DNA of 64,000 nt from Buxus sempervirens (lineage: Eukaryota > Streptophyta > Magnoliopsida > Buxales > Buxaceae). Positions 5,701-61,778 of the stretch are shown here, piece after piece. Both the position numbers and the translations under genes were made by a program. The DNA lies in contig OX387182.1 of assembly GCA_947561395.2 (NCBI GenBank), forward strand, positions 1,932,001-1,996,000, in the 5' to 3' direction. The notes beneath the pieces are model-generated. The model did no database searches. It was not told the DNA's origin and saw nothing but the letters and a program-made list of their open reading frames with translations. The first letter of the stretch is position 1; each line of letters starts with the position of its first letter.

Positions 5701-6982
5701 TGTGGTTGTTGAACCCAACTAGTTTGAACAAGGCATTGTTGCTGTTGTCATTACTAGTGAATTCTTAAAGTATATAACAAGAAAAGCAGTGGGTAATTTT
5801 GGCAGCAAGGTGAGGGAGTGGAAGACATCATCAAGAATCACAAAATTTTGCTAACAGTGCCATCAACAATAAGAATTTTAAAAGCATTAACCATCTTATA
5901 ATATTTCAGTTATCCATGCCCATGTAAACCAAATTATAGAAAGCACATCAGAAAGCCTAGTGTACTGACCACTTTGTGCAGTTTGAGAATCTCTACCCAA
6001 TTCCAGAGCCTTTTCTTCTTCAACAAGCCGATACTCATAGTATTTGTACTCTTGGCAGTCTTCATCAAATAAAAACCTGCAAGGAGCACATAATATTGAA
6101 GACAGGATGAAGAAAAACCAGAATGAAAAACGCCCATAAGAAAGAAGTAGAATCTGAATTACGATAGAGGAACATTGACTCCCCAAACCCAAATGTAGAT
6201 AGAGGACACTTCAAATAGACACTGACGAGATGAATATTAGTCAATGAATGACTGAAAGAGAGAAAGACAGAGGTGTCACCATTGAACCAGGATCGTGTTG
6301 AAGGTTCAGCTAGATTACCTTTTCTGCCTGCACCAGATTAGCTTATATCTTATCTGGCTGCATATACACTTGTACACTTAGGACTAGAGGTGTAAGTAGG
6401 GCGGGTTGGGTCGAGTTGTGAGAGTTCAGGCTCAACCCAATCTAGGATTTACTAGCCCAAACTTGTCGTTAACCCGCCCTAACCCAAACTCACTAAACCC
6501 AAACCCAACCCAAACATTATTGTTTGAGTTCGGGCTGGGTTCGGGTTGGCCCAAACAAAATGTAAGATTTTGAATTTTTTTACAATTTTTGTTAATAATT
6601 ACAAAATGTTGGAATATCATTCATTAATTCGTCTATCAACATGCTTTTATGTTTGTTTGTTAAAAATACAAATATTACAAATTCCTCTTGATTTGTCCCT
6701 TGAATTTGGGAAAAACGCACTTAATTAATTTTTTTTTTTAATTTTAAAATATAATACTAGCTCACTATATTTGTGGTTTTGCACAATCTTTCTTGTAGAA
6801 TATGTGCTCTCAAATATCACATTTATTGTAACATATATGTATATGTATATATGTATATGTATGTGAGTATAAAATTATTTATTTGACAAAAATTCATAAA
6901 CTTATTATCACATGTTAATAATTTATGTTTAATAGTTGATTGCATAAATACAATGACAATATAAAAGGAAAAGAAAACAATG

Positions 6983-7043
<61 letters not shown>

Positions 7044-18432: not shown

Positions 18433-18861
18433 TGCATTTACAACTCTGCACCCCATATGGTTGTGATTTAGTTACCACTTTTTAGGTTTTCTTAATAATT
18501 TTTTGTTATATGAGTAGATTTATTTATTTTTTATTTGCATGTATCTAAATGAATCATAGATTAAAGTCATTTTTAATGAGTCAAACCTTTTATGAGCATA
18601 GGTATTAATGAGCCAAGCTCGAGCCGATATTGAGCCCATAATTTTTTAAAGAGTTTGAGATGAGTTGTATAAAGCTCAACTCAGCTTGGCTCAACACGTT
18701 TACAACCTTGAGCAGGATTAACACAAGGTTGCGTTGACGTGGATGGGATAAGGTTGTTCCTTTGGGCCTTCAGAGTTTCTTTTTTGTATGGTTTTCCATT
18801 AAAAAGTGCATTCTACCAAAAACCTGATATTGATCCATGGCCTCAACGTGAAAATATAATT

Positions 18862-19498
18862 GTAAGTAGGGCAGGTTGGATAGGGTTATATTGAGTTCAA
18901 AGCTTAAGTCTATTTAAGATTTACTAGTCCAAACTTGCTACTGGTTCACCCTATTATTTGAGTTTGGTTCACCCTAACCCAAACTCAGTAAACCAAAATC
19001 CAACCCAAACATTATTATTTGAATTCTGTTTAGGTTAGGATTGGCCCAAACAAAATGTTATTTTTTGGTATTTGTTTGATTTTTTTCTACGAACGTAAAA
19101 GACAGAATATCACTAAATTAAAATCATCTACAACCGTTCAATGGCCTCTTAACTAGTCTCTTGAATTTGGGGAAAAAAACTTAATTAATTAATTAATTAA
19201 AAACATTATTTTAAAAATATAATGAGCCAATCATAGGCCTGGTGCATTTGTAGTTGCACTTGTGGTTGCACGATTCTAGTTTTAGAGAATGTGTGCCCAA
19301 ATATCACAACCATTGCAGCATATATATATATATATACATGTGTGTGTGTATGAAATTATTTATTTGAGAATATATTCAGAAATCTGTTATCACATGTTAA
19401 TAATTTATGTTTTATAGATAATCACATAACTAAAAAGACAATGTAAATAGAAGGAAAAAAAACAATAATATAAATACACACAATCACTCTTTACATAC

Positions 19499-19557
<59 letters not shown>

Positions 19558-19745
19558 AGTGTGTACGTAAACTTAACTCAACTTTTAGGCTTTTCAAGTT
19601 GTATAGCATGAGTTCAAACTCAATCCAAATTCAACTTTGGTCTACAAATGAAGCCCAACCTAAACCAAATGCTCAGTTAGCTCTTATTTGAGTTGGCTTG
19701 GTGGGCTTTGGGTGGTTCAAATTCCAATTATATTTACAACTTTAC
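18862..19745. mobile_element. Non-autonomous hAT element, family A copy 3 (old)
   Basis: The left end TGTAAGTAGGGCAGGTTGG and right end ATTTACAACTTTA match family A. The interior parallels copy 1 (ATTTATTTGAGAA, CACATGTTAATAATTTATGTTT, an (AT)n tract), but CCCAACCC words have decayed by CG/TA changes. Flanking TGAAAATA/CTAAAATA agree at 6 of 8 positions, a worn target duplication. It is older than copy 1. Confidence 0.75.

Positions 19746-33835: not shown

Positions 33836-33875
<40 letters not shown>
33836..33875 (+). repeat. Poly-G tract, about 40 bases
   Basis: An uninterrupted G run in the region between the putative 5' UTR exon and the coding start of the FAR1-like gene. Open frames through it encode only polyglycine or polyproline and are not genes. 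Confidence 0.9.
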
Positions 33876-34669: not shown

Positions 34670-34695
34670 GGGGGGGGGGGGGGGGGGGGGGGGGG
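34670..34695 (+). repeat. Poly-G tract, about 26 bases
   Basis: The second G run, 0.8 kb after the first and about 430 bp before the FAR1-like coding start. It can form stacked G-quadruplexes and is error-prone in sequencing. Confidence 0.9.
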
Positions 34696-35127
34696 TGGGT
34701 GTTGGGGTTTGGTTGGATTATGTATTGCAGTATTTAGATCTGGCCTGATTAATTTGATACGTAATGTGAAGTTATTCATCATAGGTGTGAAACTCTGAAA
34801 TGTTAATGTGACATGCCTTTGTGTGTACTTATATTTTCCTCCTGATATAAATGTATCTTTGAAAGTAGTCACAACATTGGAATTTCCTTGCATGAATTTA
34901 TATGGTATATTATTTTATTTTTATTGAACCACTTTTTCCTATTTAATTATTCATTTGCCTCTCTGTGTAACTTGCCAATGTGATCACTGAACAATGAGTC
35001 AGATTTTTTATCCATGGGATTGCATATCGGCGGGAACTTGATATAGAGTGTTTCTGGAGCCAATGTGATGGCAAATGGCGGTCACAGGTGAATGGCAGAG
35101 ATGAAGTGGATTTAAAATTTCACAGCC

Positions 35128-38100
35128 ATGATGGAATTTATTATTAGTATGGGGGATATGAATATAGAGCCCTGTAATGGTATGGAATTTGAATCAAACG
35201 AGGCAGCTTACTCATTCTATAAAGAATATGCTAAATGTGTGGGGTTTGGGACTGCCAAGCTAAGCAGCCGCCGTTCAAGGGTATCTGGGGAATTTATTGA
35301 TGCAAAATTTGCATGTATGAGATATGGAAGCAAGCAACAGTCTGCTGAAGTCATTAATCCACGACCTTCTCCAAAGATAGGTTGCAAGGCAAGCATGCAT
35401 GTGAAGAGAAAACAAAATGGAAAATGGTTTGTACATAGTCTTGTAAAGGAGCATAACCATGAACTTTTACCAGCTCAAGCACGTTTCTTTCGAAGCCACA
35501 AAACTACGGGTCCGGTTAACAAGAATTACACTAGACTTCGTACATGTAAGATATATGCTGAAACTTCAAAACACCTTGGTGGATGCCAACATGTTGATGT
35601 TTTAGAGATTGATGGAGGTGACCAGTTTGATAAAGGGTTGAGATTGGTGTTAGAGGTGGGAGATGGGCAATATATGCTTGACCATTTGATGAACATGAAG
35701 GAAGAGAATCCAAAATTCTTTTTTGCGGTGGACTTCAATGAAGAACAATGTTTAAGAAATGTGTTTTGGATTGATGCCAAAGGCAGGACTGATTATGTCA
35801 ACTTTGGTGATGTAGTTTCATTTGACACCACATATGTCAAAAACAAATACAAGACCCCTCTTGCTCTTTTTGTTGGAGTTAACAATCATTTTCAGTCCAC
35901 ATTGCTTGGATGTGCATTGATTGCAGATGAGACTGTGTCTACATTCGTTTGGTTAATGAAGACGTGGCTTAAAGCAGTGGGGGGACAAGCTCCAGGGCTG
36001 ATTCTTACTGACCAGGATAAAGCCATGAAAGCTGCTGTTGCAAAGGTTTTCCCTGGCACACATCATTGTTTCGGATTGTGGCATGTATTAGAAAAGATCC
36101 CTGAAAATCTTGGTCATTTAACTCAACAACATGAGAATTTTACTGCAAAATTTTATAAATGCATCAAGTCTTTGACAGATGAACAATTTGAAAAGAGATG
36201 GTGGAAAATTGTTGATAGGTTTGGGCTCAAAGCGGATGAATGGATCCAGTCATTGCATGAAGATCGTAAAAGATGGGTGCCAACTTACATGAGAGGTATG
36301 TTTCTTGGTGGGATGTCTACCCCTCATCGATTTGAAAGTATAAACTCTTCTTTTGATAAATATATCTATAGGGATACTATATTGAGAGAGTTTTTTGAGC
36401 AATATAAAACAATTCTGCAAGATAAATACGAGGAAGAAGCCAAAGCAGATTTTGATGCATGGCATGAGTCACCTGAGTTAAAGTCTCCATCACCCTTTGA
36501 AAAACAATTGTCAGCAGTGTACACACATGAAATCTTTGAGAAATTCCAAGTTGAAGTTTTGGGAGCAGCTGCATGCCATCTTAAAAAATTAACAGAAGAT
36601 GGGTCAGACATAACATTTAGTGTTAAAGACTTTGAAGAGCATCAAAATTTCATAGTGACATGGAATGAAAGAAAGAAAGAAATATTTTGTTCATGCCTTT
36701 TGTTTGAATATAAAGGATTTCTTTGCAGACATGCAATGGTAGTTTTCCAAATGTCTGGTGTGTTTAGCATCCCATCTCAATACATATTAAAAAAATGGAC
36801 AAAACTTGCCAAAAGCAGGCATCCAATTAGTCAAAGATTGGATGAGTTGCAGTCTAGGGTGCAACAGTACAATGATCTATGTAGACGGGCGATTGTATTG
36901 GGTGAAGAAGGGTCATTATCTCAAGAAAGCTATGATGTTGCTTTATGCTCACTAAAAGAAGCTATGGGGCAATGTGTAATTGTGAATAAAAAGCCTAGGA
37001 CATCAATAACTCATCTTAACATTGAAGAAGAGAATCCTGGTAACAGTACCGCATCTAAGCTCAATAAGCTCGATCCTCGAGTGGCCAAAACAAAAGGGGC
37101 TCTTAAGAGAGTTGAAGATGGAATGGAGAAGATAAATATTCAAAATTCAAACAAGGAAGTGAAGGTTAGCAGAGATTTAGCATTTGACATATCTATCTGT
37201 ACCTAGTATGTTGCTGTTGTGGACTATTTTTAGTGTCTGATTCAATTAATTGTGATTTTGAATATATTTAAGGTGCATTTGGAGCCAATAGCAATTAATG
37301 ATGGTATGGAGACAAATGAAGTTCATCTGAATGACATAGTTGAGGCTGGAATCGAGAATTCAAATAATGAAAATACTGCAAACGACGAAATATTGGTTAG
37401 TTGAGTTTTAATGTTTCACCAAAAAGCAGGTTGAATATATTTATTTCTAAATTTTTTTATCCAAAAACTATTTTAGTAAGCCTCTTGCACTTGTTTTAGG
37501 TACATTCAGGGGCAGAAGTAATTATTGTTGGCAGACAAGGCAGCTTCCATCCAATGGTTTGTTATATTTTATCCCTATCTCGGTTTGTTTGAAACAATAT
37601 ATAAAAATATGGCAAAATGATTACTAGATAAAGATATTTCTCATTTTCATGCTTCTACGAGATTTCTACTTGAGCAGTCTAACTTAGGATGGTTGGGGAG
37701 GTTTTCAGAGGAGAATGCATGCGATAAAGAACGTAATTGTCAACTTGTTACATTTTGAAAGAAGTTTTTTCATTTAAATATATTATATTAGTATTTAATT
37801 ATTAAGTAATGAAATTTCTGAAATCGGGTTTTAATGCATGTAGAAGCAGTTACCGCCACCTCTTCAAGATTCTTATGCCATTCATTGGATGTTTAATATA
37901 TTGTATAGGATAGCACATACGTGAACATAGTGTATAATGCAAGGAACTCAGTCAACCAGGTTTCATACTTGTTATATGGATTATAATAACTCAATAGCAT
38001 CTAGTTTGAATTAATTTAGAATTAGAAAAAAAATTGCTTTTTCTTAACAGATAATAAACTGTATCCATTGGAAGGAGAATTTACAAGTAAATTCAGGAAA

Positions 38101-41100
38101 GCATAAAACTGATCTGTGTATGCTAAAAGATATAAAATACAGAGAGTTCAGATTTTTGAGTTTATTATAATTTTTTCCTAATTAGATAAGACATTTTATT
38201 GTTGCTGTTGTTCTTTTTATTTTCTTGCATGATTTTTCCTTTTTATTCAAATTATTCTTTCGAGAATCTAATTCCTCATTATGCATTCATTCTGGATTGG
38301 GAAGTGAGTTCCATGGAACTCATTCCCCAAACGAGTGTGCAGAAGTTGAAGAAATGTTAGGTTTGATGTTTGGTAAAGGATGATCGATTCTTGTAGAGCT
38401 TATAAATATTACAAGTTTGACATTGTTTCATAAATGACAATTGACAAGTCATATAAAGCAGTCTTTAAAACAAGTTTTATGTATATCCTTCAGAATTTAC
38501 AGAAATTACAAGTATTCCACCCCACTTTTGCAAAACTCATTTTGAAAATTCCAGAAACAGGTGTTGGCCATTGGGCAGATTCGTCTTTTTAGTGTATTTT
38601 ATAAAACTCATTGGGGGGAAACTTCATTTCCTAAATGGAACCAAACACCCGTTGAACCCCTCAAAACTCATTATAACCCATGGAACCCATTCCATGCTGT
38701 GGAATGAGTTCCCAAAATGAATGCCAAACGATGCATATGTTGCTAAAACAGTGTACTTGTCATTTTAAATTTCCATTTTGTGGGAAATTCCTTAACTTTG
38801 GCTAAGTCAATTTTGCTATTTTGTGATATTTCCTTTATAACTTATATTAAGGTAGTAATAGCGTCAATGCAAGTAAAATTGCAATGCCCTTGAAAAGGGA
38901 AAATTTCCCTAAATGGGGAAATTAGAAGCCTGATGTTGCATTTCAAGGGTATTCAATCATTGCCTTTGAGAACCATTCTATATTCATAGGTAAAGAGATC
39001 GAATTGCTGCTTGCTGTTTGTGAAAATATGATTTTCTGTGTCATTTAGGGGTTAAGCTGATTTTTCTGAACTTTTTGTTTGGCTTAAACTTTATGAGGTA
39101 AAATAGCTCCAGAGGAACATCCATCTGTTTATAATGTATTGGCTGTTGATCATGTTTCTTCTTAATTGTTAGAAGGAATGATGGATATGGCACTCCAACT
39201 TGCTATAACCTGTCGTAGTTTTCAACTAGTGGCTAGGTTAGCCATCACTGGATGTTAAAGAAGGAAGGAGTCCAAAGATAGAGAATCTACAATTAGTCCA
39301 AAGATCAAATGAATATCATCTTCTCCCAAAAAGAATCTTGGTTGCATATAAATCTCAACGCAATCGTAGAATTTTATAGATGAAGGACAGGGATCCGGAA
39401 AGAAGTGAATCAAAATAGAATTTTCAAATTACGGGAAAAATATTATAGTTTTACAAATTCTCAGGTGGTTGTTTGAGATGGAAAAGGTTTTCAACTGCAA
39501 GGATTTGCTGTATCCTAGGATGTTGAAGCTGGTCTACAGTGGATCATTGGGCTTTGCTATGATGTGATGAGCTTCTAAAGTCCAAACTGAAGGGATTGGG
39601 CATGGAAGAAACCAAAAAAGAAAAAAAAAAGGGTCAAGTTTTGTACTGTCCAAGTTAATATTTAATTTGTAATTCATTTTAGAAATTGATTGAGAAGAAA
39701 CTGTTAGTTCAAGTAATTGTAACATGAGCTATCACAGGGACAGATTCTGGAAAAGAATATGTGATGCTGAATTTTCACGCTGTGGCGGCTAATCTTTCAT
39801 TGCTATGTAAATTTGAGAACTTGTTTTCTGTCAAGTAGAGAAACTTGCCAATTCTTCCATATAATATTGGCAACAAATATTTATTTGCATGCTTTGAACA
39901 CAAGGATTTAGGAATTCTATATGGCCAAGCGTTGGATGTAGAAAGCCTGTGCCTAGCACTTGATGTAATGCTCATTCTAGCTTAAGTCTAGATCTGTGGA
40001 GACAGAAATAGGTGTTGCATTTTGCTATGGATACAGAGGATAACATGGTAGGCACAAGGTCTTGACGCGTTGATGATTATAGTTCATCAACCTTTGTGAT
40101 GGGGTGGGGCCCACTGAAAATCCATGACTTCAGTGATTTGTCTCTAGTATGAAGAAAGATTTCTCTGGTTCCTCTTTCTTGAAAGTCCTGAGGAGGTATA
40201 GAGATGATGGTATTCAGCATCCAGGGTTTTTGGAGCGATTTCGTCTCTCGAAGGGTACCGTCTTTTTTTGTTTTTATTGCACTGTTAGATAAAATGTTAA
40301 ATGTAAAGTACCTCAAAATCAGGAGGGTGGGGGTATGGAGGGGAAGATTTGGGTGAGGAAGAGCACCTGGGAATTGAGATCAGGAGGCTGCTAGCTGCTA
40401 CTGTTATCTTGTTAGCCTCTGTTTAAACTCCAAATGAATGATGGTCTCTTTTATATTGGGGCATAGAAAATCCTCATTGATGCTTTCACTTTCAAAAGGA
40501 ATGTGTAAATGGTTAATCGTAAACTTAAAAGAAAAAAAAGGCCATATGCATAACTAAGCTTAAAAAGAACGGCCATATGCATAACTAAGCTTTTATTCTT
40601 CTCTCCCTTCCTCTTTCTCTCCTCCCCCAGTGTTGTGTAAGAGCCCTCAAAACATTTACAATGATCAGAAAACTCATAACATAATTTGCTGAAACTTTCA
40701 TGTGGAGTTAAAAAACAGGGGGAGAGGGAAGGAAGCAGGGCGATGGGTGTTATGCCTCCTTGTGCTCATGATTCTTATGCTTTGAGGTACATTGCCTCAT
40801 CTCCCCCATTTAAAATGTCGAAATTGTAGTATTCTAATATACCCTTTGTTTCTGGCCTATTTTGTTGGTTGGTTAGAGTAATGACCTGTGGGCCCCCCAA
40901 CAGAAATTTATCTTCTGTTTTCAACTTTCTGGCTTATTGAGTGTGCATGATCATGGCTTTTCACACAGGGTTAAAAAAAATTAGAGCCTTTCTGCTGGAT
41001 CTGCAATATAAGATTTGGGAAATTGTCAAATGACTTAGATCACTGGATTGGGTAATTGGGCGATGGGACAATTTGAAGAAGGGCTTTCAGTATATCAGGA

Positions 41101-41889: not shown

Positions 41890-44800
41890 AATGAGTGCTC
41901 TCTTGCATACGGGTAATCCACAAATTTCATTTCGGGTCTGTATGAGTGTTTTTGTGTAGCCTTACTAAGGCTTTAAACACAAATGCTGTCATGAATTTTC
42001 TTCTTTTGATGAAAATACAGATAGATAATAAAGAGTACAACAGAAGAGAAAGAAACCAATAAAGCATAAATAAAGACCAAACCTTTACAATCCGTCAGTT
42101 ATGCCTTTGTAAGAGTGTGGGTAACTGGCATGCATATTAGAGTGAACCTACCTCTGGAGGATTAATAATTATCTATGTAAATGGTTGGGTCTTTACTCAT
42201 TTATATGCTCCAATTGGCATCATTTTAGAAGATTGCATTAAGAATTTGCTCTGTTGTTTCTTGCATTTAGGAATAATTCCGTCTCTTTTTGACTATTAGA
42301 AATACCTCCTTTGGTAACTGACAAACTGTAAATGCACTTCTGTCCCCAAAAAGATTTAGAAAGGAAATTCCTCCATGTAGCGTACAGATTTTTGCATGGA
42401 GATACATAAACAGAACTGTTATTGCTTCTCATCTTACTATGCGTTAGCTGCTAACTTCTGATCAGGTTTGATCAAGTGATGCCAGTGTTTGCTGTGATGG
42501 CGAAATTTCACCGGTTTTGGCAGAAAAAGAAACGGAAACAAAAAGATTCCATGGGGGGTACCAAACACCCCTGCACCCCCACTCTACAACACCCTCGCAC
42601 AAACCACCACCCTCCCCACACATACCCATGCACCATTCCCCACCCACAAGCACCACAAAAGTTCTGTATGACATGGGTTGTGTTTCACCGTGTGGGACAA
42701 ACTTTGCATAGTTTCGACAATATGCTCTACTTTCCGTAGAAACAGATGGATTCTGCACAGCATGCCATGAGGAATCTCTAAAAGGAAAAGGAAAAAAAGA
42801 AAAGAAAAGGAGAAGGCGAAAAGATGAGAGAGAGAGAGGTAGCATACTTGCCTCCACCTCTTGGATATTTGCCACTATCCTTTTTTTTTGTGGGGGGGGG
42901 GGGGGGGGGGGGGGGGGGATGGGATGAGTTCATACCTGACCTTTAATTCCTTTATTTACTAGTTCAACACTGTGTTACAAAAAAATGCAGTGGCACAACC
43001 AGTGAAATTTTAGTGAAACGGCATTGCTGGTTAAACAGCATTGAAACCGGCATGATGAATCTTGATCTACACCAATTTCAGAAGGCAAGCTTTACGTTAG
43101 GATGTGAACTAAGAGGAAATTGTTCTGAACAGAGGAATTATAATTGATATTACTGCATGGAACACCAGCAACTCTTAAGATAGAGAGGTTGAACTTTCTC
43201 TGCCCTTCATTTTCATTTGTTTCCTGCTTGAATTAAATATAATGGTGAACGATTACCAAAATTTAGAAGTATTTAAGTCTCTATGTGAATGGGTAGATTG
43301 GTTAGGCATGGTACAACAGTCTGTAGTTACATGATTTGCTCACACCACAGATGAATTCAGATGATCCACTTGTCCATATGTTTTTTGACATGATTTCTCT
43401 TAACATACTAAGTTCCCTACTGAATAATTCAACCGGTGGAACCAGGACTATCAGTTGTTCAGACCTAGAACCATGTTCAACCAGTATTTGCTCTGAAAAG
43501 TTCAAACATGGATATTATGCATCAGGCATATGGCATGCTGATTTTCTGTACGGATCTGAATTTAATTTTTTTTATGAAGCTTTAGTTCTAATTCAAATGC
43601 TTGATTGATAAGGCATAAATTATGACCAAGAAAATGGTAGTCCTTAATCAACGTTAAATTTGTTAGGAAGAGATATCCATCACCATCTCATTCTATGTAA
43701 GTTGAGCAGCTTCATACATGTCATGGACTGTAGGTCTGGTAATGGTCCTACTGCCAGTCCTTAATGTTTAAACACAAATAATTAATTGAATCAGGATATT
43801 CTGAATTCAGATATGGTTCAAATTTAGATAATCATTTAAAAAAACCTGTTGATTTTTAATTAGATTAATTGTTGGGCTTAAAAATTGAACTAGGAGAAAA
43901 GCAGTCTGGCAGGGACTTGTATTGATAGTGACAACCTGTTGGGTGGGGTTCAGGCCTGAGAACGTCCAACCCTATCACATGAGTAAGAGGTGCTATTAAG
44001 ATAACGAAAGGAAAAAAAAGTAGAATGGGGAGAAGAAGAAAAAAAAAATTTAGGGTTTCAATTGGTAGTTCATAGGGTTTGCATTAGTTAGCCTTGCTTC
44101 ATTGTTTGAGACTGGGGGGAAGTATTGTTGACCAAAAATATGTCCATGAATAATTCAAGGTACTGAAATTTTTTGTTCTGATAAAAATGTCTGTTTTCTT
44201 TAACAAGTGACTCTTTTTGAGGAGCTACAATAATACAATGAGACGGCTGTTTATTCAGCACTAATAGGTGTTTTATTATATTACAAAATGATTGCTAAAC
44301 ATGGGAGTTGTTAGTTTTCCTTTGTGTGAGTCTAGTTTAAGTTGTAAGCTGTAGCAGGAATCTTCTTTTCATATATTGTCAATATCCGATCTTGTTTTAT
44401 AGCTGTTGATGTCCAGAATTTTGATTTATTATCTTATTAATTATTCCGTGTGAGACTACTAATTTTGTAATTCTGTGCTTTAACTGTGAACAACACTTAC
44501 TTTAGCTGTCTTTCTCTTTAGACGTGTCTGGATTTTGTATTATCCTCTCTGGATGAGAAATTTGACTTCTTGATGTTGTATTGAAGTAGCCTATAAATCC
44601 TTTCTCATTTTTAGGGGTAAACAGCTTATTATGTTGTGGTCACTATGTATAAAATGACTTTGTGGTACAAATCCCAGATCATGCTTGCAAGCTTTACCTT
44701 GACAGTTGCAGTTGTATTTTTGGCTGCCAATTATTTGCAATAGTTAAATATTTAGAATGCGGTGGCAACTTTATTTAGGTAGGACAATTACTGCATGCTA

Positions 44801-47701: not shown

Positions 47702-50700
47702 CCATCCCTAAGTATTACTTATGGGCTCACAAGAACCTGATAAATAGAGATATGGCAATATAAGAACAAATTATAAGAGTGCACTAGACAAGAAAATGTA
47801 GTTGTGTGCAAAAAAAATAAGGCAACCAATCCAATACTATAACTTGTGTACATAAGCTGGTACACCAAAAATAAATAAAGGATTATCTACAAAAAGGCAA
47901 CTAGCAGCTTACACACTCTCCTATCTTATGTACAATCATATACAATTCTACAAGAATTCCCAAGTCCAAAATACATCACAACGAAACCAAAAAGTGATCA
48001 TAACTAACTTAAATAGAGACCTTACATCGGGTGGAAATAATCCTCTGGCCTATACTCCGGGTCACCCTGTAAATCTACCCCAATATGCGGCTCACTAGCA
48101 GGATTTGAAGACAAAATCGATAAAAACAAAACACACATGAGACTAACGTCCCAGCAAGTAGCAAAATGCATGGTAAGAAACAATTTATGCAACTTTTAAA
48201 TAATAAAAGAAACATGCTCATATACTATGTGTCCAAACCATATCAAAATTATGTGAAGAAACAGTTCATTATAATAATACAAATCTCAGTATAAAGTGTT
48301 AGTACAGGACTCGTGAATTAGTGTGTCTGTCAACCGAGATAACCACCCTCAACCAATTTGCCACTTCATGACTTGCAGGTGGATGTTAGAACACGGTCAT
48401 CACCCCAAGCGGAACACCCACACATGGATTGGCAAGAGACAAGCCAGTCAACTATTAACACACACACACATGGAGACTTCGTCGCTCTCACACGGCGGGA
48501 TGGGTTGTGACACCCAGTCAACTGTGATCATAACACACACACACACAAGGAGACATCGCCAATCCTACATGGTGGAGTGGATGAGTCTCGAGTGTTAACT
48601 CGACAAGCCATCACTAATACACTGACTAAGTTGATTATAGATCCACAACCATTTCTATGCCCACTAGACTCGTACAAACTCATAAATAACCATTCAAAAC
48701 ATTTTACTCAACAAAACTCATAAGGACACCATCTGCCCCAAGCACAAAACCAAATCCAAGTGATTCTCATATTCACTTCCCATTAAATTCCTAGTCTATA
48801 CTGCCTTCTGAAATGCCATAGACTTGCAGCCTTTAAAATTAACGGAAGCCTCAACTCTATTCTCCAATCACATAACTCAAACACGTTTTGCCAAACCAAA
48901 TTATTAACAAAAGGGTTAAAGAATAGCTTTATAAACAAAAAGACTAGTTGAGTTTCACGTATTAAATTTAAACACGAGCAAAAACCCCTTCTACAAGCCA
49001 GTAACTTCACTTTTTAAAGAACACATGAATTTTCACCAAAATTTAAATTCATGCCTAAACTTTAAATACTCAATAAAATATAACTGATTTTTCATTAATA
49101 TATGCATTATACCACTAAAAATTAAATATTTTTAGAAAAACAAAGTTGTGTTGAGCGCTTTCTTCCCAGGTCGCTGACGGTTGCATTTTGGTGATTTTTA
49201 ATTTCTTAATTTGGGGTCCAAATGGCCTACCACTATTTCCATTCATTCACAAACACCATAAACTAAATTTTAGACTATTAACATGAATTTTAATACAAGG
49301 ATTTCAAGTCCTCGCAAGCCACCAAATCTTATATAGTTTTAAGACAGTATAATAGAGTGGTTTCTGTATTTAGACTTCAAATTATTATTATACAAACGAA
49401 TTCAGATTACAACCTATTTTTATAGAGCATTATAAATTAATTGGAAGCATATAAAAATATTTAAACTAAACAGAATAGCAATTTCTACCAAAACAAAATA
49501 GCAATCTCTAGGAATTAGGGTGTTGGTGTTCAAGCCTGAAACAGGCACTAGTCGAGCAATAGAAAATTCTGGGCTCTCATATTCCTTCTTTGTTCTATCT
49601 TATTCAGCCACAAAACCATTAATTAAGACTTCATTAAAGAATCCCTACAACCTGTTGTAGTTCATTCTAAAACAACCCAAAGCCCCAAGCATCGACAAAC
49701 TAACATCATTCTTTCAGGTTTAAACTTGCATTGCAATGTTAAACTCCTCTCGATCTGGTTTGAATCAAGTAACCTCAAGAAATCATTCAAATCCCATCAA
49801 ATAAATTATAACAGGGTCTTTAGAACTAGAAATGAATCTCTAGAATTTCAAAAGAAAATAGATAAGCCATATAAACCATGAAAATTCAAAGTAAGATAAT
49901 TTCTAATATGTTCAAATCAAACATGAATCTGGAACCGATTTCCTAGCATGCAAAAGCAATACAAAAATTTATTAAAATCCAAACAGAATACCACAATAAT
50001 ACAAAGATTTAGCGATTAATCCAAAACAAAACATTGCATGTTTAAGTTTTTAAGGGTTGTTACTTACTTGGAGCTTTGCAAAACCCAAGCCAAGGCTTTC
50101 CCCTTCTTCACTTTTTCTCCTTCATCCACTTTTGCAACCCCTTGAGCTCCCTCTCTCCTCTGCTCTCAACGTATTAGGCAAGGATGAGTTTTGCCCTTAA
50201 CCAATTTTTGGGATTAAGACATTGACTCATTTGGCCTTTTACTAAATTGCCCCTTTCACTTGAGCCCCTTTCCAAATAAAACTCAATAACTAACTTTCCC
50301 ATTTTCTTGCAACTCTCACTTAAGCAATTAGCCATAATATGAATAAAATATTATTCTAAATGAATCCTAACACACCTAACATGATCTCTTACTTGGGTTT
50401 GCATACTTTTTCACTTAACTCTAAAATTTTCAAAATTTGATTCCAACTTCACTAACACTACTTGGAGGACTTTTAGAACCTTCCTAAACTCATCCTAAAT
50501 TCATGATTTAGGAAAGGGATTGAGACCTTTGCTAAGGAAAAAACATCCTATCAAATAAGAATCTAAACCTTGAAAACTATTCTACTTATCAAAATCTGGG
50601 AATTGCCAACTCCCAACTTTTGGAGAATTTTAGTAATATTCAAATAAATTAGAAACAAGGGGTTTCTTTCAAAAGACATGAAATTCAAATCAAAGCTTGT

Positions 50701-50850
50701 TCGAAGGGTGTTGCTTACCTTAGTAAAATACTCAATAGACTTTCAATTGCTTCTCGAATCATTAGACAGTCCACATCTGCTCCTCCTTCATAACACAAGT
50801 TCTTAATTAGTTTAATAAGCCCAATTTAACAATAGATTAACTAATTAGGA
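47702..50850. other. AT-rich region with no recognised gene
   Basis: No credible exon on either strand. It has short CA runs near 48460 and 48530 (ACACACACACA) and a loose repeat of the phrase around them (GGAGACTTCGTC, GGAGACATCGCC). It may be an old transposon without coding capacity. I could not find ends or a family. Confidence 0.4.
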
Positions 50851-50889
50851 TTTAATTCAGGGTTTTACAAATAACCCTCTTTTAACACA

Positions 50890-51075
50890 TTCAGCCCACT
50901 TTAAACTAATGTTTAATGGTTTACTGATCATCTTTAAACCAAAATTGAATTTAATATTTAATATTTAATGGTTTACTGATCATCTTTAATATTTAATATT
51001 TAATCTTTGAACTAATATTTAATATTTAATGGTTTACTGATCATCTTTGAACTAATATTTAATGGTTTAAATCCG
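50890..51075. repeat. Tandem repeat TTTAATGGTTTACTGATCATCTTT
   Basis: The phrase TAATGGTTTACTGATCATC occurs three times (about 50917, 50964 and 51026), separated by variable runs of TTTAATATTTAATATTTAAT. Copy number probably varies between individuals. Confidence 0.85.
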
Positions 51076-51310
51076 TTAATAGCAGAAGCCATTGAATTAA
51101 TCCTCAAGAACTCTCACCCTCTTCAACCATTTCTCATTTCTTCTTCTGCAACCATCTCACCCAGTGCTACATTTTTTTTATCAAGAACCCTCACCCTCTT
51201 CTCCTGCGTAACGATTTTTCAGTTCTTCTGCAACCTGCAACCATCCCAGCCTCTTATTCTGCACCGCGTTTCTCATTTACGGAATATGCAACAAATAACA
51301 TGAGAAACAG

Positions 51311-51528
51311 AGCAAGAAAGGAATATAATAAAGAAATAGAGGTTCGTCCAGCCCCATACAAGATTATGTACATTTACGGAGAAGCAAGAAAGGAAGATAA
51401 TAAATAAATAGAGGTGGAGCCCCATACAAGATTACGTACATTTACGGAGGAGCAAGAAAGGAAGATAATAAAGAAACAGAGGTGGAGCAATAATGGAAGA
51501 TTATAAAGAAAGAAAGGAGGTTCCTCTA
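51311..51528. repeat. Tandem units AGCAAGAAAGGAAGATAATAAA beside the inverted repeat
   Basis: Units start at 51311, 51383 and 51451 (72 and 68 bp). Each contains AGCAAGAAAGGAAKATAATAAA and GAGGTGGAGCCCCATACAAG-type sequence with CGTACATTTACGGAG. They grade into the outer edge of the long inverted repeat, where AATAATGGAAGATTATAAAG is itself duplicated (51488 and 51531). The array and the inverted repeat probably share an origin. Confidence 0.8.
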
Positions 51529-54043
51529 GCACAATAATGGAAGATTATAAAGAAATAAAGGAGGTTCCTCTAGCACCATACAACAGTACGTCTTATATCA
51601 TGGAGTTAAATAATTTAGTGGGTTCTTCTTCTTCTTCGCATACCTTGATGGAATATGTTAAAGAAAGATGGGGGGTTTATGATTCGGCACTAAGATGAGA
51701 GAAATGAGGAAGATAAAAAGTAAGGTATATAAGAGGCCCTTGGCCCCATTCAACAGTACCTCATACATCATGGAGTTAAAGAGTTCAATGGGTTGTGATA
51801 CATTTAGGGTTACAGAATATGGAAAACAAAGATAGGGAATTGCTGAGTATGGCAACAACATGAGACTAATGAAGAAGATAAAAAATAACGTATAGAGTTA
51901 CGTACAATTACAGGAATAACAGCCTGGTGACTCTCAAGTGATCCTACAGGGGTCTGGAATTATGAGCAGCATGGAATTGGAATTAGCAGTGATGTAACTG
52001 AAATCGGCAGTGATGAACAGCCTCCTGATACGCAAGCCACCTGGTCGTGAATTCAAAAAATGAAGGTAAGCAGGGACGGAATATAGCATAGGTAACTACC
52101 ATACTCTTTTTAGTTTAGCCATACATATAGATGTTGTCCTTATATATATTAGGATTTTCATGGTGAAGTCTTTTAAGTTTAGCCATACATATCATAGTCC
52201 TTTTGAGTGGCTTTGAAATTGTTCCAAGCCTCTTAATGGGAGCTTTTATGCTAAAAGGTTTGTACTAAGAACTGCCATGCATCGTAATTTTAAGCTGCAA
52301 ATTGTATGGGTGGAAATTAAAAGTGGCATTATGATGGGAGATGATTGGAACCGTCAAATACCTTGACTAAGAATTGACAACAATAATGAAGATGTGGACT
52401 CAAAGGTTATTGATACGTTCTTTTGGCAGCTCATTGTGCTCCAAACCATGTGAGTCTAGTATGAATTTCAATTTGTGATGATCTGAATTGATTTTCTAAA
52501 CATCCAATTTTTTGAGGAGGCTTTATTGCCTTGTTGAGTAGTTTGACAATGCAGTTCTTAACCAAAGAGGAGAGTGTTCTAATTTAAAACACCATTTGCA
52601 TGTTCATTTGTAGGAAGTGATGTGAGGAGGTAGCTTAATTTGTAAGCTGCTCACTGCTCAAAGACTTCCAAGAACTCTAGTAGAAGTAATTCCTAAGTTG
52701 GAGGATTTTGCAAAAAGAGGACTCACTTTCTTTAGTCTTCTCAATCATAATTTAAGCATTTCTTCCAAGAAATTGCTCCATGCAATAATTACCTAATAAT
52801 TAATTATGGTTACATTCACCTTTGCCCCACGCCCCATGCATTAAACATAAACTTTTGATGAATTCATAGCAACATCATCTACAAAGTGAACTACCAACAG
52901 GTCCCAATAACAAAAGAAGTCGCAGCCACTGAATGGTAACAAGGAAAAATTTATTGTCTTATTCTGCCCTTACACAAAATGTCAAATTAGAATACTCTCC
53001 TCTTGGTTAAGAACAGCATGGTCCAACTACTCAACAAGGCAATAAAGCCTCCTTAAAAAACTAGATGTTTAGAAAATCAATTCAGATCATCACAAATTGA
53101 AATTCATACTAGACTCACATGGTTTGGAGCACAATGAGCAGCCAAAAGAACGTATCAATAACCTTTGAATCCACATCTTCATTATTGTTGTCAATTCTTA
53201 GTCACGGTATTTGACGGCTCTATTCATCTCTCATCATAAATACCACTTTTAATTTCCACCCATACAATCTGCAGCTTAAAATTAAGATGCATGGCAATTC
53301 TTAGTACAAACGTTTTAGCATAAAAGTTCCTATTAAGAGGCTTGGAATAATTTCAAAGTCACTCTAAAGGACTGTGATATGTATGGCTAAACTTAAAAGA
53401 GTTCACCATGAAAATCCTGATATATATAAGGACAACATCTATATGTATGGCTAAACTCAAAAGAGTATGGCAGTTACCTATGCTACATTCCGTCCCTGCT
53501 CACCTTCATTTTTTGAATTCACAACCAGATGGCGTGCGTATCAGCAGGCTGTTCATCACTGCCGATTTTACCAGCATCACTGCTAATTCAAATTCCATGC
53601 TGTTCATCATTCCAGATCCCTGTAGGATCACTTGAGACATCACTAGGCTGTTGTTCCTGTAATTGTACGTAACTCTGTATGTTATTTCTTATCTTCTTCA
53701 TTACTCTCATGTTGCTACCATACTCAGAAACTCCCCATCTTTGTTTTGTATATTCTGTAACCATAAATGTATCCGAAGAACCCATTGAACTCTTTATCTC
53801 CATAATATAAGACGTACTATTGAATGAGGCCGAGGGCCTCTTATGTACCTTATTTTTTTATCTTCCTCATTTCTTTCATATTACTGCCGAATTCATAAAC
53901 CCTCCATCTTTCTTTAACATATTCCGTCAAGGTATCTGAAGAAGAAGAAGAACCCACTAAATTATTTAACTCCATGATATAAGACGTACTGTTGTATGGT
54001 GCTGGAGGAACCTCCTTTCTTTCTTTATAATCTTCTAGTATTG
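51529..54043. repeat. Long inverted repeat, two arms of about 1.06 kb
   Basis: The left arm 51529-52585 is the reverse complement of the right arm 52984-54043, with a 398-bp spacer. By eye the arms agree at roughly nine bases in ten with small indels. For example AACAGTACGTCTTATATCAT at 51589 pairs with ATGATATAAGACGTACTGTT at 53974, and CTCATTGTGCTCCAAACCAT at 52431 pairs with ATGGTTTGGAGCACAATGAG at 53119. Each arm contains two diverged internal repeats about 166 bp apart. Read on the minus strand, the right arm gives short frames EDYKERKEVPPAPYNSTSYI and VTEYTKQRWGVSEYGSNMRV, QLQEQQPSDVSSDPTGIWND. I do not recognise this protein. It sits 0.9 kb 3' of the OTU gene. Confidence 0.9.
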
Positions 54044-54923
54044 CTCCCAAAATATATTTTGTAAATTAATGTAAGACTTACTGTAAGATGTACTCTGGAG
54101 GAACCTCTGTTTCTCTCATCAAATTTAGTTATGCATATGGCCTTTTTTTCTTTTAAGTTTACGATTAACCATTTACAGATTCCTTTTTTTTTCTTGTAAA
54201 CAATGTAAATGTCTCTGTAGGTTTAGGTTGTACTATCAACATCTACTAAAATATTTATGGTTTTGTAATCTTGCCTTTTATCTGATAGCCGAGGATGGAC
54301 AAAATGGTATTATCAACGTACTTTAAGAATGAAATTTATCTGATGATTTTTAATAGCAAACAGTAGCCAACCTTTTTAGCTAGTTAAATTCTATGCTTCT
54401 AACATTAAATTCATTCTAAATTTTATATAAGGGAGTTTTCGTTGCTTCTGTTTCGGAAGAAATATAAATTTTATTTAAGGGAGAAATCCAAACTAAATGT
54501 AGAGTTCAAGGGGTCAAGAAAATAACATTTTCCCTACAAGATATTTCATTCAATTTTTGGTAAGTTCTGATCAATTTATGTAAATATGCTTCAAACTTCT
54601 CATACTGCAATTTAAAAACAACGCAAGAAAGAGAATAGACATTGAATGAACTTATGACAAAATAATCGGTATTGAATAAAGCCTTACGATTCCTTAGCAA
54701 TTACAATCTGTAATATGTAATGAGATACAAATCAATAAATTTACAAATCAATAAAATAAATGAAGTACTAAACTGTGCATCAACATAGTCCTCAAACAAA
54801 TACAATGTAAAGTTATGAAAGGTTAATATTAAACAGGCAATATTTAAGACAGAAAAAGTTGGGTTAACTACGTACATGATCCCCATAAATGGCACCATTC
54901 TTCACCTTTTCCTGATATACATA
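54044..54923. other. 3' flank of OTU-like gene
   Basis: AT-rich region between the outer end of the inverted repeat and the OTU-like stop codon. It probably holds that gene's 3' UTR and polyadenylation site. No other gene is seen. Confidence 0.45.
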
Positions 54924-57900
54924 CTAAAGTCTTGATTTATGAACCTCTTTCCCAGGAATCTGCAAGGCATCATAATGTCCACATCCATCATATAGGACTC
55001 TGATTGGATTTTTCTTCCCATATTCCTGACCATACTCAGAAATGGCTATCAGGCCACCAGAATCCTCATCATACATGTATACTGTGATTGGCATTCTGCG
55101 GCAAACAGAATCATAACAACAACATTAATAATATGGCATTATCATTCTGAAGAAGTCCTAACGAAGGAAAATAAAAAATAAAAAAAATGAAGAGAAGGCT
55201 GGAATACAAACAATGGCTTGCATAAAGATGTTCAACGTGAGGAGTTATTAGGAACTCTCTCTTTTGAAAGAATAGGCTTCGGAAAGTTACTTTGACAGAC
55301 AACCAAGAAATTATAGGAAAAGGGAGTGCATCAGTGACAGGTAGATTTAACAGGATGATTCAGAATGAAAATATTCAAACTCAAGGGGGTCTTCAGAGCC
55401 TGAAAGTGACCCTAGTATGGGGGCTAACCAAAGGGGATAGTCAGTTAAGAAGGTTAGGCATGTTCAAAGCTGAAAACTGGCATCAAGATATCAAAGATGA
55501 CGTACTTTGACTCGAGCAAAGATTTGAAAACAAATTACAACTGAAGATATTCTCTAGATATCAAACGAGAATAGTGGAGGAAGATACATGCTGCCATCCC
55601 CTACCATTTGGGTAAATACGTTGATGACTGATTAACTTATTACTCATATACAAACAAAATTATATTTAGCAGTAAATCCAAGTTATTTAAAAAGATTTTG
55701 CACCAATGTAAACAAATAAATCTTGCTTTGTTTACACAAAAAATATAGTCATATACACATGCACACACAGACACACACACTTAAGGGGGGGAAAGGGAGA
55801 GAGAGAACACTCACTGGAGAACGTGTGATGCCATAAACAACTCAGGCTCACCTCCCCATACATGTGGCTTCCTGATCTGTGAAACGTATGTGTCAAAATC
55901 ACCTTCCACAAACCTGTTCAGATTGTGTTGCATTAGATAAATGCCAGTTTAGCTACCATTTGACAGTTTTTTTTTTTTTTAAATTAGAAAAAGGCAAAAA
56001 TTTCTTCCTTGCACAAGATGAATGGCAAAGAAATCTAGTATTTCCAAATTCCAGTTCCTGTGCGGGCAAGATCAACAGATAGCCAGATTTTAGATTGATT
56101 TTATTCATATTTCACTTGCACAACCCCAGTATACTTGGGAAAGCTACATCAATATTGTTAGAAGTGATATAAATCCTAGAACGCACCATTCTGTCTCCTC
56201 TCGCCTTTTTGTAAATTCGTCTGCAACCTGTCAGTGTCAGCATATTCACTCAAGTCATAAAACAATACTATATTGAGAACCGAAGTCATTATCATAGTTA
56301 AAAAGAAAGGGGAACCCCATTCACATGAAACTAGTTACTTTCTTTTTCAATCAACTAAAAAAAGACTCTTTTTCCTTAGCTAATATGATCTCTGAGGCAG
56401 TTTTCAGAATTTCCCTTTTTAAGTGAATTGAAACGGCTAAATTACATGAATCGAGACACGTTCCCTTAATAAGGTTTTGATTTCTAGTTTCTAGGAATTT
56501 TCTTTCAGCCACCAGCCCTCACTGCAATATTTTGGATATGTATCACTCAAAGCAATTCCAATCTTTGTTTGTTTGTTGGCTTGAATCTAAGTTGCACCTT
56601 GTATGGTACGACTGAGTTCTGTAACCCCAAGTAGTCATTATCTTTTCTTTTTACGAAAATTTATGGGCTTTGAGACCTGTAAAACCCTCGAATCTGTAGA
56701 TCAAGGATGACCGGCAGAATAAAAGCCTGACACCTGAAGGATATTTTGTTTAGGTGATCTTTTCTGTCTCAAAAATATGTCTGCTCCTATTTTCAGAGGC
56801 TCCAACAGATGGCAAAAGAAACACAAATTTCAGGGAAACTTGAATCTCTCTGTCCAGAACTGGCCAGCTGGAGCTGGAGCTGGGCAAACAAGAGTCATGC
56901 ATATGGGAATTTCAAAATTCAAACAACCACCAACACTATTGAATTTAAGGTTAAATCATGCCCACAAGTCTGAGGTGGCTTCGACATGTATTCTCAAGTA
57001 CTGGGTTTTGCAATTAAAAGAATATTTGCAAGTTTGAGTAGGCTCATGAAATCGTGTAATTCCAATTGTGGTTCAAAGCATGTTTACATTTTCAAAGTCA
57101 CTAATCACATAGAATACCAAATAGCGTGCAAAGCATCTAATCAAAGTGTAAAAATGTACTCTAGCTCGCAAATCATCTGCTAATTCTTTCTGGAGGCTCT
57201 CACTTGGAGATGGTTTTCCAGATCGTAAACAGGCACCATAAGCAATAGAGCGGAACAAGCAACTCCCATCTCCAGGTATGCCTGTGTGGTATGAAGTGGA
57301 TCAACATCAAGAGTATTATCAATGGAAATAACTCAATCTTCAAAAATAGTTTTGAGTAAAGAAGCTTTGGCAGACCAGTAAGAAAAAAAAAATCTTCCAC
57401 TCGCATTGGGACATTCAACAGAGAAGAAAGCTAAAAGTATCAATTGCACAAAAGAGAATATTGTTCACCAGTTATTGAATAGTCAGTGTAAACCTTCTTT
57501 CCATGTGTAGATCTACTCAAGGATGAGCCATGGCAGTCCTCATCCTTCTCATCTCGAGCTGCTTCAGCATATACTGGTTCAGAAGATAAAGAGCAAACTA
57601 ACCACCCTAATATCAAGCCTGCAGAAGCACCTGCTTTTAGAAAAGATGCAGGTCCAACAGTCCACCTGATTTTCGGAAGCATTTCTTGTTTTGGTGATGG
57701 AGGCCTCAAACTCATACTTTCACACAGCACTGAAGTTGCAAGGCTTGTTGTCAGGTGTTCTGTAGAAGTTCTTAAGCTTTTGACTGCTAATGGATTCCAG
57801 TTTATCCTCTGTTTGGAGAAGGAAGAATCAAAGCAACTTGGTTGTAATGCTTCAGAGCCAATAGCCAATGAACGGGAAATGGTCCCAGGGATGGCCACTC

Positions 57901-58045
57901 GAGTATATTTCAGTTGGGAGTGCGCAGAATGAAAATATGTGCAACATGAGCAGGACATATTGGCACTCATTTGCTTTCCAAAATGTACCTTCAGGAAGAT
58001 TATGCTTTTTACACATGTACTGACGGGAGAGCAATCTATGGGCAT
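54924..58045 (-). CDS. OTU-domain cysteine protease (deubiquitinase, OTU4-like)
   Basis: Five coding exons on the minus strand: 58045-57469, 57281-57160, 56227-56187, 55913-55815 and 55095-54924. GT-AG junctions, phases agree, 1011 nt, 336 aa. The OTU domain spans about 190-325: GIPGDGSCLFRSIAYGA with D197 and catalytic C200, DDLRARVADEF, VWGGEPELFMASHVLQ (family hallmark), ISEYGQEYGKKNPIRVLYDG and CGHYDAL with catalytic H320. Architecture and length match Arabidopsis At3g57810 (OTU4). The first 190 residues are Ser-rich, with a hydrophobic segment at about 130-150 (AGLILGWLVCSL) ending in EPVYAEA, perhaps a transit or membrane anchor. Role: removes ubiquitin from proteins by thiol hydrolysis. 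I chose the ATG at 58045 because MPIDCSPVSTC resembles the start of the Arabidopsis protein (ICYSPITTC); the frame is open upstream but has no earlier ATG. Catalytic residues are intact. Confidence 0.94.
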
Positions 58046-58599
58046 AGCTAAATGTACAATCACAGGTTTCTGCACTAATCACATGAAGTCACCAACTAGT
58101 CAACAAGCATAGCCCATAAACTATTCGACTTTCTAGAGACAACAAGTCAGTCAAAATAATCATCTCTATGCAAAGGCATAAACAACATATCATTATATTT
58201 AGGCTGGAACAATTAAATATTGCTTCGGCCATCAAATATATATGTAAGCTGGAGCACAAATATTCTGCCTTGTACATATAGCTTTCCACATGTTTGTCTG
58301 ACATAATTTATGCCGAATCCCAGAGATGAAACAAAGAAAAATATAAATGAAAAATAAATGATTTTGCACTGGAAAATGTAATTGGAAGATGACACAATTG
58401 GTTTTCAAATATTGGTGCACAAAGCAAGGCAATGGTTAATAGCCTCTGCTCAGACAATGAAAGACATTGTCTTGTCTCTTTTGAAGACCAAAGTGCTTTC
58501 CATTTGCGGGCTTATAACCGCTAGTGGCATCTTGCGTGCCCAGAAAAGAAATAACTACATGCACTGCTATTCAATGAAAAAAAAAGGCATTAGGAAAAT

Positions 58600-58680
58600 G
58601 GTTCAGGTAGGTCATCTGGTTAGTGCAAAGGACTTAAAATCCTTGTGTCAGTGACTCAGTGGTTCTTCCTTCACTGAAGA
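58600..58680 (+). pseudogene. tRNA-Leu(UAA)-like relic
   Basis: 81 bases that fold like a tRNA. The acceptor arm GGTTCAG pairs with CTGAAGA (5 of 7). There is a D-arm-like GTCATCTGGTTAGTGC, and a perfect 5-bp anticodon stem AAGGA/TCCTT around loop CTTAAAA (anticodon TAA). A long variable region follows, then a T arm containing GGTTC. The B box is broken (GGTTCTTCC in place of GGTTCGANNCC), so transcription and processing are unlikely. It could also be the head of an old SINE. It lies in the 5' UTR intron of the OTU-like gene, on the opposite strand. Confidence 0.4.
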
Positions 58681-59479
58681 ATGAAAGTCTACAACAATTG
58701 GGAGAGGCAGGATATGAGCCTACATACAAGAACTTCAACATATTTACAATCTGCGGCCACACTCCCCTTCCCAGTATTATGATCTTGGAAAGATTCCCAG
58801 TTAGCCGAGACAAAACATATACAATAGCAGCCAGTTCAATAACCATTTTTCCACTATTAGACTATTATTCACTTTACACTATAACGCCTTATACCATTTA
58901 AGCCTTTCTTAAGAATTACGTGAAAACATCAATAACAATCGTCAAGTAGATTGAAAAAATTGTGATAAATTAAATAAACAAATAAATCTGCCACGATAAT
59001 GACTATTTGAGCCGATGAAACTGTCGAAACAAGCTAGACACTCCATCATCCTAACCATTTCAATTATTTCATGCACAGCATAGTTAATACCTCTCAGTGC
59101 CTACACATTCTGGGCAATTAAAATCATGAGTTTAGTAACAAATTTCAGAATTTAACCCTTGCAAAATACAAATCCATCCGGAAGTTGGTATTTCCATTAG
59201 CATCTCATAATTTCAAGTATTTCAAAAAACAATCACAAGAGAAAAACTATCAAAAAAAGGGGGGGAAAGAACGAGGAATGCACGATTTTTTTTTTTTTCC
59301 TTCGAAGGAAAAGAGGACGAGAAACGAAATATCCAAAAATATTCCAAAGGAAATAGAGGTTCCAAACCAGAAAATTAGATAAAGAAGAAAATCCTAGAAA
59401 GAACGAAACATAATAACCATAGCACGAAAAAATACAGGCTTAAGAAGACACAAACGAAGACTTGTGAAGGAAAGAGTAC

Positions 59480-61372: not shown

Positions 61373-61778
61373 GGGAAAATTAATTTTTAGTGATATTTTT
61401 CAATATAATTAATATTCAGTCAACAAAGTTTTGAGTTTTAATTGTTAATAAATCTTTATCAAAATAATTAATTTTTAGTAGCATTTCATTGTTACCAATA
61501 AATTCTTTCAAAAATATCCTTATACAACTCACTTTTAGGACTTCTACATGCCATTTTAGACTTATATAAGCAATAAAATGACTTATATAAGTCAATAAAT
61601 TGTTTGTACAAGTCAATAAAATACTTGTACCTTGAGTGAGTGAACAATTGATTTGAATAGTAAAATGTCATTAATAAATAATTATTTTGATAAAGGTATA
61701 TTAAAAGTTAAAATTCAAAATTTTGGTGACTGAATCTTAATTATTTTAAAATTTTATTACTAAAAATTAATTTTCCCC
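61373..61778. mobile_element. Mutator-type foldback MITE
   Basis: 406 bp between perfect 9-bp duplications GAGATTATA (61364-61372 and 61779-61787), the size used by Mutator-like elements. The left end GGGAAAATTAATTTTTAGT is the reverse complement of the right end ACTAAAAATTAATTTTCCC. Similarity continues inwards for over 100 bp (ATTCAGTCAMCAAARTTTTG, CTTTATCAAAATAATTA). No coding capacity. Confidence 0.88.

Follow-up and report, generated by a model that had tools for sequence, protein, structure and literature searches.

A kilobase-scale inverted repeat downstream of an OTU gene in Buxus sempervirens, probably derived from a local copying error

A 64-kb stretch of the Buxus sempervirens genome, referred to below as the window (C1:1932001-1996000), carries two long arms in opposite orientation next to a gene encoding an OTU cysteine protease. 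This arrangement raises the question of how such a structure came into being, and of whether a transcript able to fold back upon itself would make it a source of small RNAs. The window was compared with itself and with the whole assembly, which comprises 676.5 Mb in 247 contigs, and the features discussed here are collected in Table 1.

The inverted repeat is real, and chance is excluded as its origin. The two arms of about 1.06 kb, lying about 0.4 kb apart, that had been described in an earlier note on this DNA were recovered by BLAST within the window, on opposite strands and with 91.6% identity over 1061 columns; they enclose a spacer of 398 nt and constitute the top-scoring self-match of the window. 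Aligning the arms and counting their differences, as that note had proposed, gives 81 substitutions in 1053 gap-free columns (7.7%, K2P 0.082) together with six indel events. Recognisable homology between the arms reaches slightly past the ends given previously. At the left outer edge, units of 68 bp and 44 bp have been expanded into tandem copies that span 51311-51580. The arms are disposed tail to tail, the coding-like sense running inward on both sides. Folding of the RNA corresponding to 51532-54043 gives a predicted energy of -1709.7 kcal/mol, as compared with a mean of -586.6 (SD 13.2) for eight dinucleotide shuffles. In this predicted fold, 996 of the 1054 bases of the left arm are paired with the right arm, and the longest unbroken helix measures 82 bp. 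The locus shares with endoIR-siRNA loci one of their features, a long and near-perfect inverted repeat whose two arms can pair within a single molecule.

Table 1. Position of the inverted repeat and of the associated features (coordinates of the window)
Feature	Position	Strand	Remark
Tandem-repeat extension of the outer edge of the left arm (68-bp and 44-bp units)	51311..51531	+	
Left arm (core), putative younger inverted copy	51532..52585	+	Coding-like sense inward; probably younger, from the order on C6
Coding-like unit 1, left arm, broken frame	51558..51683	+	
Coding-like unit 2, left arm, broken frame	51737..51883	+	
AATTT microhomology at the left-arm/spacer junction	52581..52585	+	Common to the inner end of the arm and to C6, where the latter reaches the far side of the spacer
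Spacer and inner half of the right arm, with a single-armed counterpart on C6	52581..53433	-	C6:49531596-49532478
Spacer (loop), 398 nt	52586..52983	none	One other match in the genome, C6:49532094-49532473, opposite strand
Right arm (core), putative older arm	52984..54043	-	Contiguous with the spacer, as on C6; coding-like sense inward
Coding-like repeat unit 2, right arm	53687..53836	-	Against unit 1: dN 0.19, dS 0.99 (protein-guided)
Coding-like repeat unit 1, right arm	53853..54017	-	
Diverged remnant of the same outer edge, right side	54044..54118	-	Outer limit set by eye; trace near 54044-54115
Filler-like piece	54125..54187	-	Inverted relative to 40494-40557; 62/64 columns identical
AATAAA hexamer past the OTU stop codon and ahead of the right arm	54470..54475	-	
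OTU cysteine protease gene, several exons	54924..58078	-	5' limit approximate

A structure of this type could also be produced artificially, if two alleles or haplotypes were wrongly joined in inverted orientation during assembly. Such a palindrome-type error is very unlikely at this locus, since the arms differ by 7.7% of substitutions as well as by indels, their outer flanks are unlike each other and the whole repeat is located inside a contig of 72.2 Mb. Furthermore, the sole relative of the spacer, found on contig C6, runs on into just one arm.

In each arm, the outer half contains two coding-like units of about 150-165 nt. For the right-arm units, a protein-guided alignment of 48 codons yields a dN/dS ratio of 0.19; a nucleotide-guided alignment, from which the codons with gaps or stops were dropped, yields a dN of 0.25 and a dS of 0.90, with a ratio (0.28) that is the lowest of the six frames. 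The same nucleotide-guided analysis revealed no clear contrast of this kind for the left-arm units, and a neutral simulation matched the observed amino-acid identity (30/48) in 90 of 2000 runs. For these two reasons, the evidence that the units are of coding origin is modest. No open frame extending over a whole arm was found in either of them, and a Pfam scan of eight pieces taken from the arms, edges and spacer detected no family above cut-off. Below it, HEXIM was obtained with three of these pieces (13.5, 13.9 and 15.2 bits for a cut-off of 29), and Flavi_capsid, TACC_C and UnbV_ASPIC once each. One piece compared with the PDB sequences gave no match.

A search of the genome with each arm separately returned the two arms themselves and C6:49531596-49532093 only, the latter matching just the inner 450 bp of an arm. 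No further copy of the coding-like outer half was found in the genome, within the sensitivity of the search tool. On C6, the homology runs on from the arm into the spacer, and the segment listed in Table 1 can be followed without a break along C6:49532478-49531596, where 734 columns are identical out of 806 free of gaps. The order right arm-spacer is kept there, and no second arm is present in the 30 kb fetched around it. The single-armed relative that the earlier note had suggested looking for in related species is thus present in the same genome, but as a partial copy.

This C6 segment is flanked on one side by a coding exon ending at 49529897 and on the other by an exon with a BAH domain starting near 49536524, and is intronic. 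It sits in a long intron of a BAH/TFIIS-helical-bundle gene: beyond the BAH exon lies a long frame with a TFIIS-helical-bundle domain, in which four GW or WG dipeptides are found in 1533 residues. The domain architecture of this gene recalls that of Arabidopsis SUO, a protein with GW repeats that belongs to the miRNA pathway of plants. Exact matches to the intron extend over 54 nt in both arms and over 33 nt in the loop. The paralog of the BAH gene on C10 is without the segment (6 kb fetched). On C3, an ohnolog-like region can be aligned with the exons of the OTU gene, and the 20 kb fetched there do not contain the repeat. Neither of these two regions can therefore tell whether C1 or C6 was the source. 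The description of the arms as an inverted duplication of repetitive coding sequence is consequently to be divided: it holds, with the modest evidence given above, for their outer half, whereas the inner half and the spacer match the intron of a gene.

The C6 copy allows the order of events to be proposed. In a three-way alignment of the right arm, the left arm and C6, 367 of 415 columns are alike, 24 are changed in C6 only, 15 in the right arm only and 8 in the left arm only, and a single column differs in all three. The pairwise distances are 6.0% between the arms, 9.6% between the right arm and C6 and 7.9% between the left arm and C6, and 12 gap blocks, one of them at the end of the alignment, set both arms apart from C6. 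These counts, distances and gaps indicate that the arms are sisters and that their split from C6 is the older one. The difference in rate between the arms (15 versus 8 changes) is not significant (p 0.21). Since C6 shows the right arm, in its inner half, passing directly into the spacer without a second arm, the left arm is most probably the inverted copy and the right arm the older of the two. For the outer half of the arms the same order would apply by extension, as C6 spans just the inner 450 bp of an arm plus the spacer.

The junctions of the repeat provide indications on the mechanism. Homology to C6 stops at 52581, at most 5 nt from the boundary between the left arm and the spacer, and this boundary coincides with the AATTT microhomology of Table 1, whose sharing has a probability of about 0.008 by chance. 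On the other side, the outer edge of the right arm is abutted by a short filler-like piece, the source of which lies 13.6 kb away in inverted orientation. A genome search with 54044-54560 finds these two places only. The filler differs from its source by one substitution in 63, for some 4.8 predicted from the divergence of the arms (p 0.046), and this shortage of changes suggests that it may represent a separate and later event. A templated filler and a microhomology at the junction are what repair by template switching leaves behind, and such switching is the mechanism proposed here for the birth of the left arm.

A transposon bounded by long terminal inverted repeats, of the MULE, foldback or MITE-like kind, would likewise display long inverted arms with tandem subrepeats at their outer side, and a gene with FAR1 and MULE domains does exist elsewhere in the window, although it is apparently a FAR1-related gene of the host type. 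Neither the copy number nor the ends are those of such an element. The genome searches found nothing beyond the two arms and a single partial copy, and this copy is single-armed. The outer homology fades through tandem repeats with no clean limit, and no target duplication is seen, the only exact 7- to 11-mers common to 51200-51320 and 54040-54240 being two 7-mers. The Pfam scan reported above adds no family above cut-off. This very improbable reading was rejected on the basis of the copy number and of the missing target duplications, and the previous description of the locus as an inverted duplication of a non-transposon type stands for the flanks searched.

Several other repeats and genes were observed in the window. 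A dispersed repeat situated to the left of the inverted repeat, at 49389-50877, is 88% identical to a copy on C22 (1.5 kb) and 90% identical to a copy on C9 (1.25 kb), and the first 90 nt or so of 50800-51531 match at least 29 further places. An imperfect palindrome of 0.4 kb (61373-61777), 75% identical to its own reverse complement, is MITE-like, and several related pieces are found in the C6 stretch that was fetched. The segments 6391-7216 and 18861-19701 form a related pair of repeats (67%), with a further relative near C6:49528375-49528621. The FAR1-related gene corresponds to a long open frame at 35116-37206 with FAR1, MULE transposase and SWIM domains, and a minus-strand frame at 8503-9102 gives a match to DUF4283. 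By its genes, among them the intron-bearing OTU gene and the one with FAR1 and MULE domains, the window is recognised as nuclear DNA of a plant. Homopolymers of 27 to 40 G are located at 33836-33875, 34670-34699 and 42892-42918.

The divergence of the arms bears no clear sign of a conserved function or of long-term heavy methylation. Changes fall on the three codon positions in similar numbers (20/168, 16/168 and 12/167; chi-square p 0.34), no bias being detected between the arms. Two permutation tests of substitution spacing, based on the longest run free of substitutions (76 columns) and on the variance, are not significant (p 0.14 and 0.43, respectively). The substitutions are distributed unequally between the outer half (51532-52058, 50 substitutions) and the inner half (52059-52585, 31 substitutions), with a p of 0.035. 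The less-changed half is the one next to the loop, and also the one common to C6; constraint, gene conversion or chance could account for this difference, which slightly lowers the confidence in the preferred reading given below. The two arms have CpG observed/expected ratios of 0.35 and 0.45, the short spacer one of 0.16 and the window one of 0.47, for values of 0.30 in the OTU gene and 0.24 in a neighbouring repeat, and the arms show no CpG depletion beyond that of their neighbourhood. The transition/transversion ratio is 1.61 between the arms, 1.77 with respect to C6, and 1.39 and 1.32 for that neighbouring repeat against two of its copies. Neutral drift would not exclude an output of small RNAs.

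The preferred reading of the locus, to which a probability of about 0.7 is given, is that of an ordinary local inverted duplication due to a copying error, since decayed with little sign of selection. The starting point would have been a single segment downstream of the OTU gene, composed of the right arm and the spacer. A template switch in the course of repair or replication would then have produced a reversed copy of the arm, and rejoining at the 5-nt microhomology would have left the new arm tail to tail with the first. The 64-bp piece may have been inserted next to the right arm in a comparable and perhaps later event, and both arms would have drifted from then on. A transcript crossing both arms, if any, would form an imperfect double-stranded RNA of about 1 kb, a potential Dicer substrate of the endoIR-siRNA type. 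The resulting siRNAs would act mainly in cis, and this scheme would require no selected function.

A more active role was also considered, in which a transcript through both arms would be diced into siRNAs of 21, 22 and 24 nt that silence the locus itself and perhaps a neighbour. The strong predicted hairpin speaks for such a role, with its helices of up to 82 bp, and both the fewer changes of the inner half and the low CpG ratio of the spacer are compatible with it. Precedents are offered by inverted duplications in Arabidopsis (PMC1820830, PMC1790633), by the endoIR-siRNAs of long stem-loops (PMC4687873), by repeats in rice (PMC7649420) and by the soybean GmIRCHS locus (PMC13051633). The earlier note had suggested that read-through from the OTU gene could transcribe the repeat. 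This gene, whose joined exon pieces match the Pfam OTU family with an E value of 1.2e-22, does lie just upstream of the repeat on the minus strand, its stop codon (54926-54924) being 881 nt from the arm. The read-through itself is weakened by a canonical minus-strand AATAAA at 54470, before the arm, and by a second one at 52950, in the spacer; these hexamers are weak evidence, since AATAAA is common in AT-rich DNA. Also to be counted against an active locus are the absence from the arms of CpG decay beyond the neighbourhood and the lack of codon-position bias or of another clear sign that a product matters. An active siRNA locus is a tentative possibility, less likely than not, and the repeat would work, at most, in the manner of an endoIR-siRNA locus.

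The inverted repeat had further been viewed as a birth route for a young MIRNA gene, arising by inverted duplication of a fragment of its target gene. This idea agrees with the model of MIRNA origin by inverted duplication and with the convergent arrangement (PMC3237417, PMC1790633), as well as with the coding-like units within the arms. The idea is not borne out by the genome: the search tool, within its sensitivity, detected the coding-like half nowhere else, hence no family of target mRNAs, and a search of 49000-59000 against Rfam detected no miRNA family. That search gave two matches to snoRNA families (E up to 1), both far under the gathering scores of these families; one falls within the right arm, at 53540-53613. 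Besides, the arms are about 1 kb long, with no substitution-free run longer than chance would give. As neither a family of targets nor a miRNA match in Rfam was found, the birth of a MIRNA was rejected, and is extremely improbable. Targets of the GmIRCHS or MIRNA type were found nowhere else in the genome at the sensitivity of the search tool, the only match being that of the inner half in the C6 intron. Within the window, 148 21-mers taken every 7 nt along the left arm gave one match outside 51200-54200, with three mismatches, and none closer. If the C6 gene were the ortholog of SUO, siRNAs from the hairpin could direct silencing against a gene that serves the small-RNA machinery, or methylation against its intron. 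The chance of this is very small; if true, such an action in trans on the C6 intron would mean that a copying error had given rise to a feedback loop of the plant's own making.

The local inverted duplication favoured here can be compared with several documented systems. The closest analogue is GmIRCHS, the candidate I allele of soybean, a tail-to-tail inverted repeat of pseudoCHS3 of 1,087 bp, with 78 bp between the copies; it has captured the promoter of a DnaJ gene, its double-stranded RNA was detected and it is held to silence the CHS genes (PMC13051633). The Buxus locus likewise displays arms of about 1.06 kb made of decayed gene-like sequence, tail to tail around a short spacer, but its arms are 7.7% diverged and a paralogous mRNA target was not found in the genome. 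The Arabidopsis loci IR71 and IR2039 are long stem-loops from which DCL4, DCL2 and DCL3 produce siRNAs of 21, 22 and 24 nt without RNA-dependent polymerase (PMC4687873), and Buxus shares with them the potential for a very long stem-loop, for which an RNA-dependent RNA polymerase would not be needed. In rice, long inverted repeats underlie small-RNA QTL hotspots, the small RNAs being associated with the presence or absence of the repeat (PMC7649420), and the locus studied here is similarly a genomic long inverted repeat able to form a hairpin RNA. Unlike these three systems, for which double-stranded RNA was detected, siRNAs were measured or small RNAs were associated with the repeats, it is known from its sequence and predicted fold. 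Inverted duplication is also a recognised source of young MIRNA loci (PMC1790633, PMC3237417), with which Buxus has in common a convergent inverted duplication of gene-like sequence, but here the target family was not found and no short foldback is preserved. Finally, perfect hairpin transgenes methylate themselves, and C-to-T changes or a modification of about 25% prevent this self-methylation (PMC9263138); the divergence of the Buxus arms falls between a perfect hairpin and that degree of modification.

The locus is largely explained, and it is of a known kind. It provides a well-resolved case of the origin of a long inverted repeat in a plant genome, in which a single genome displays the older single-arm order, the microhomology at the junction and the short stretch copied from close by. 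Hairpin siRNAs have their raw material in long inverted repeats of this sort. The Buxus repeat seems to have drifted and not to have turned into a regulator, which is, in our judgement, the likelier fate of such loci.
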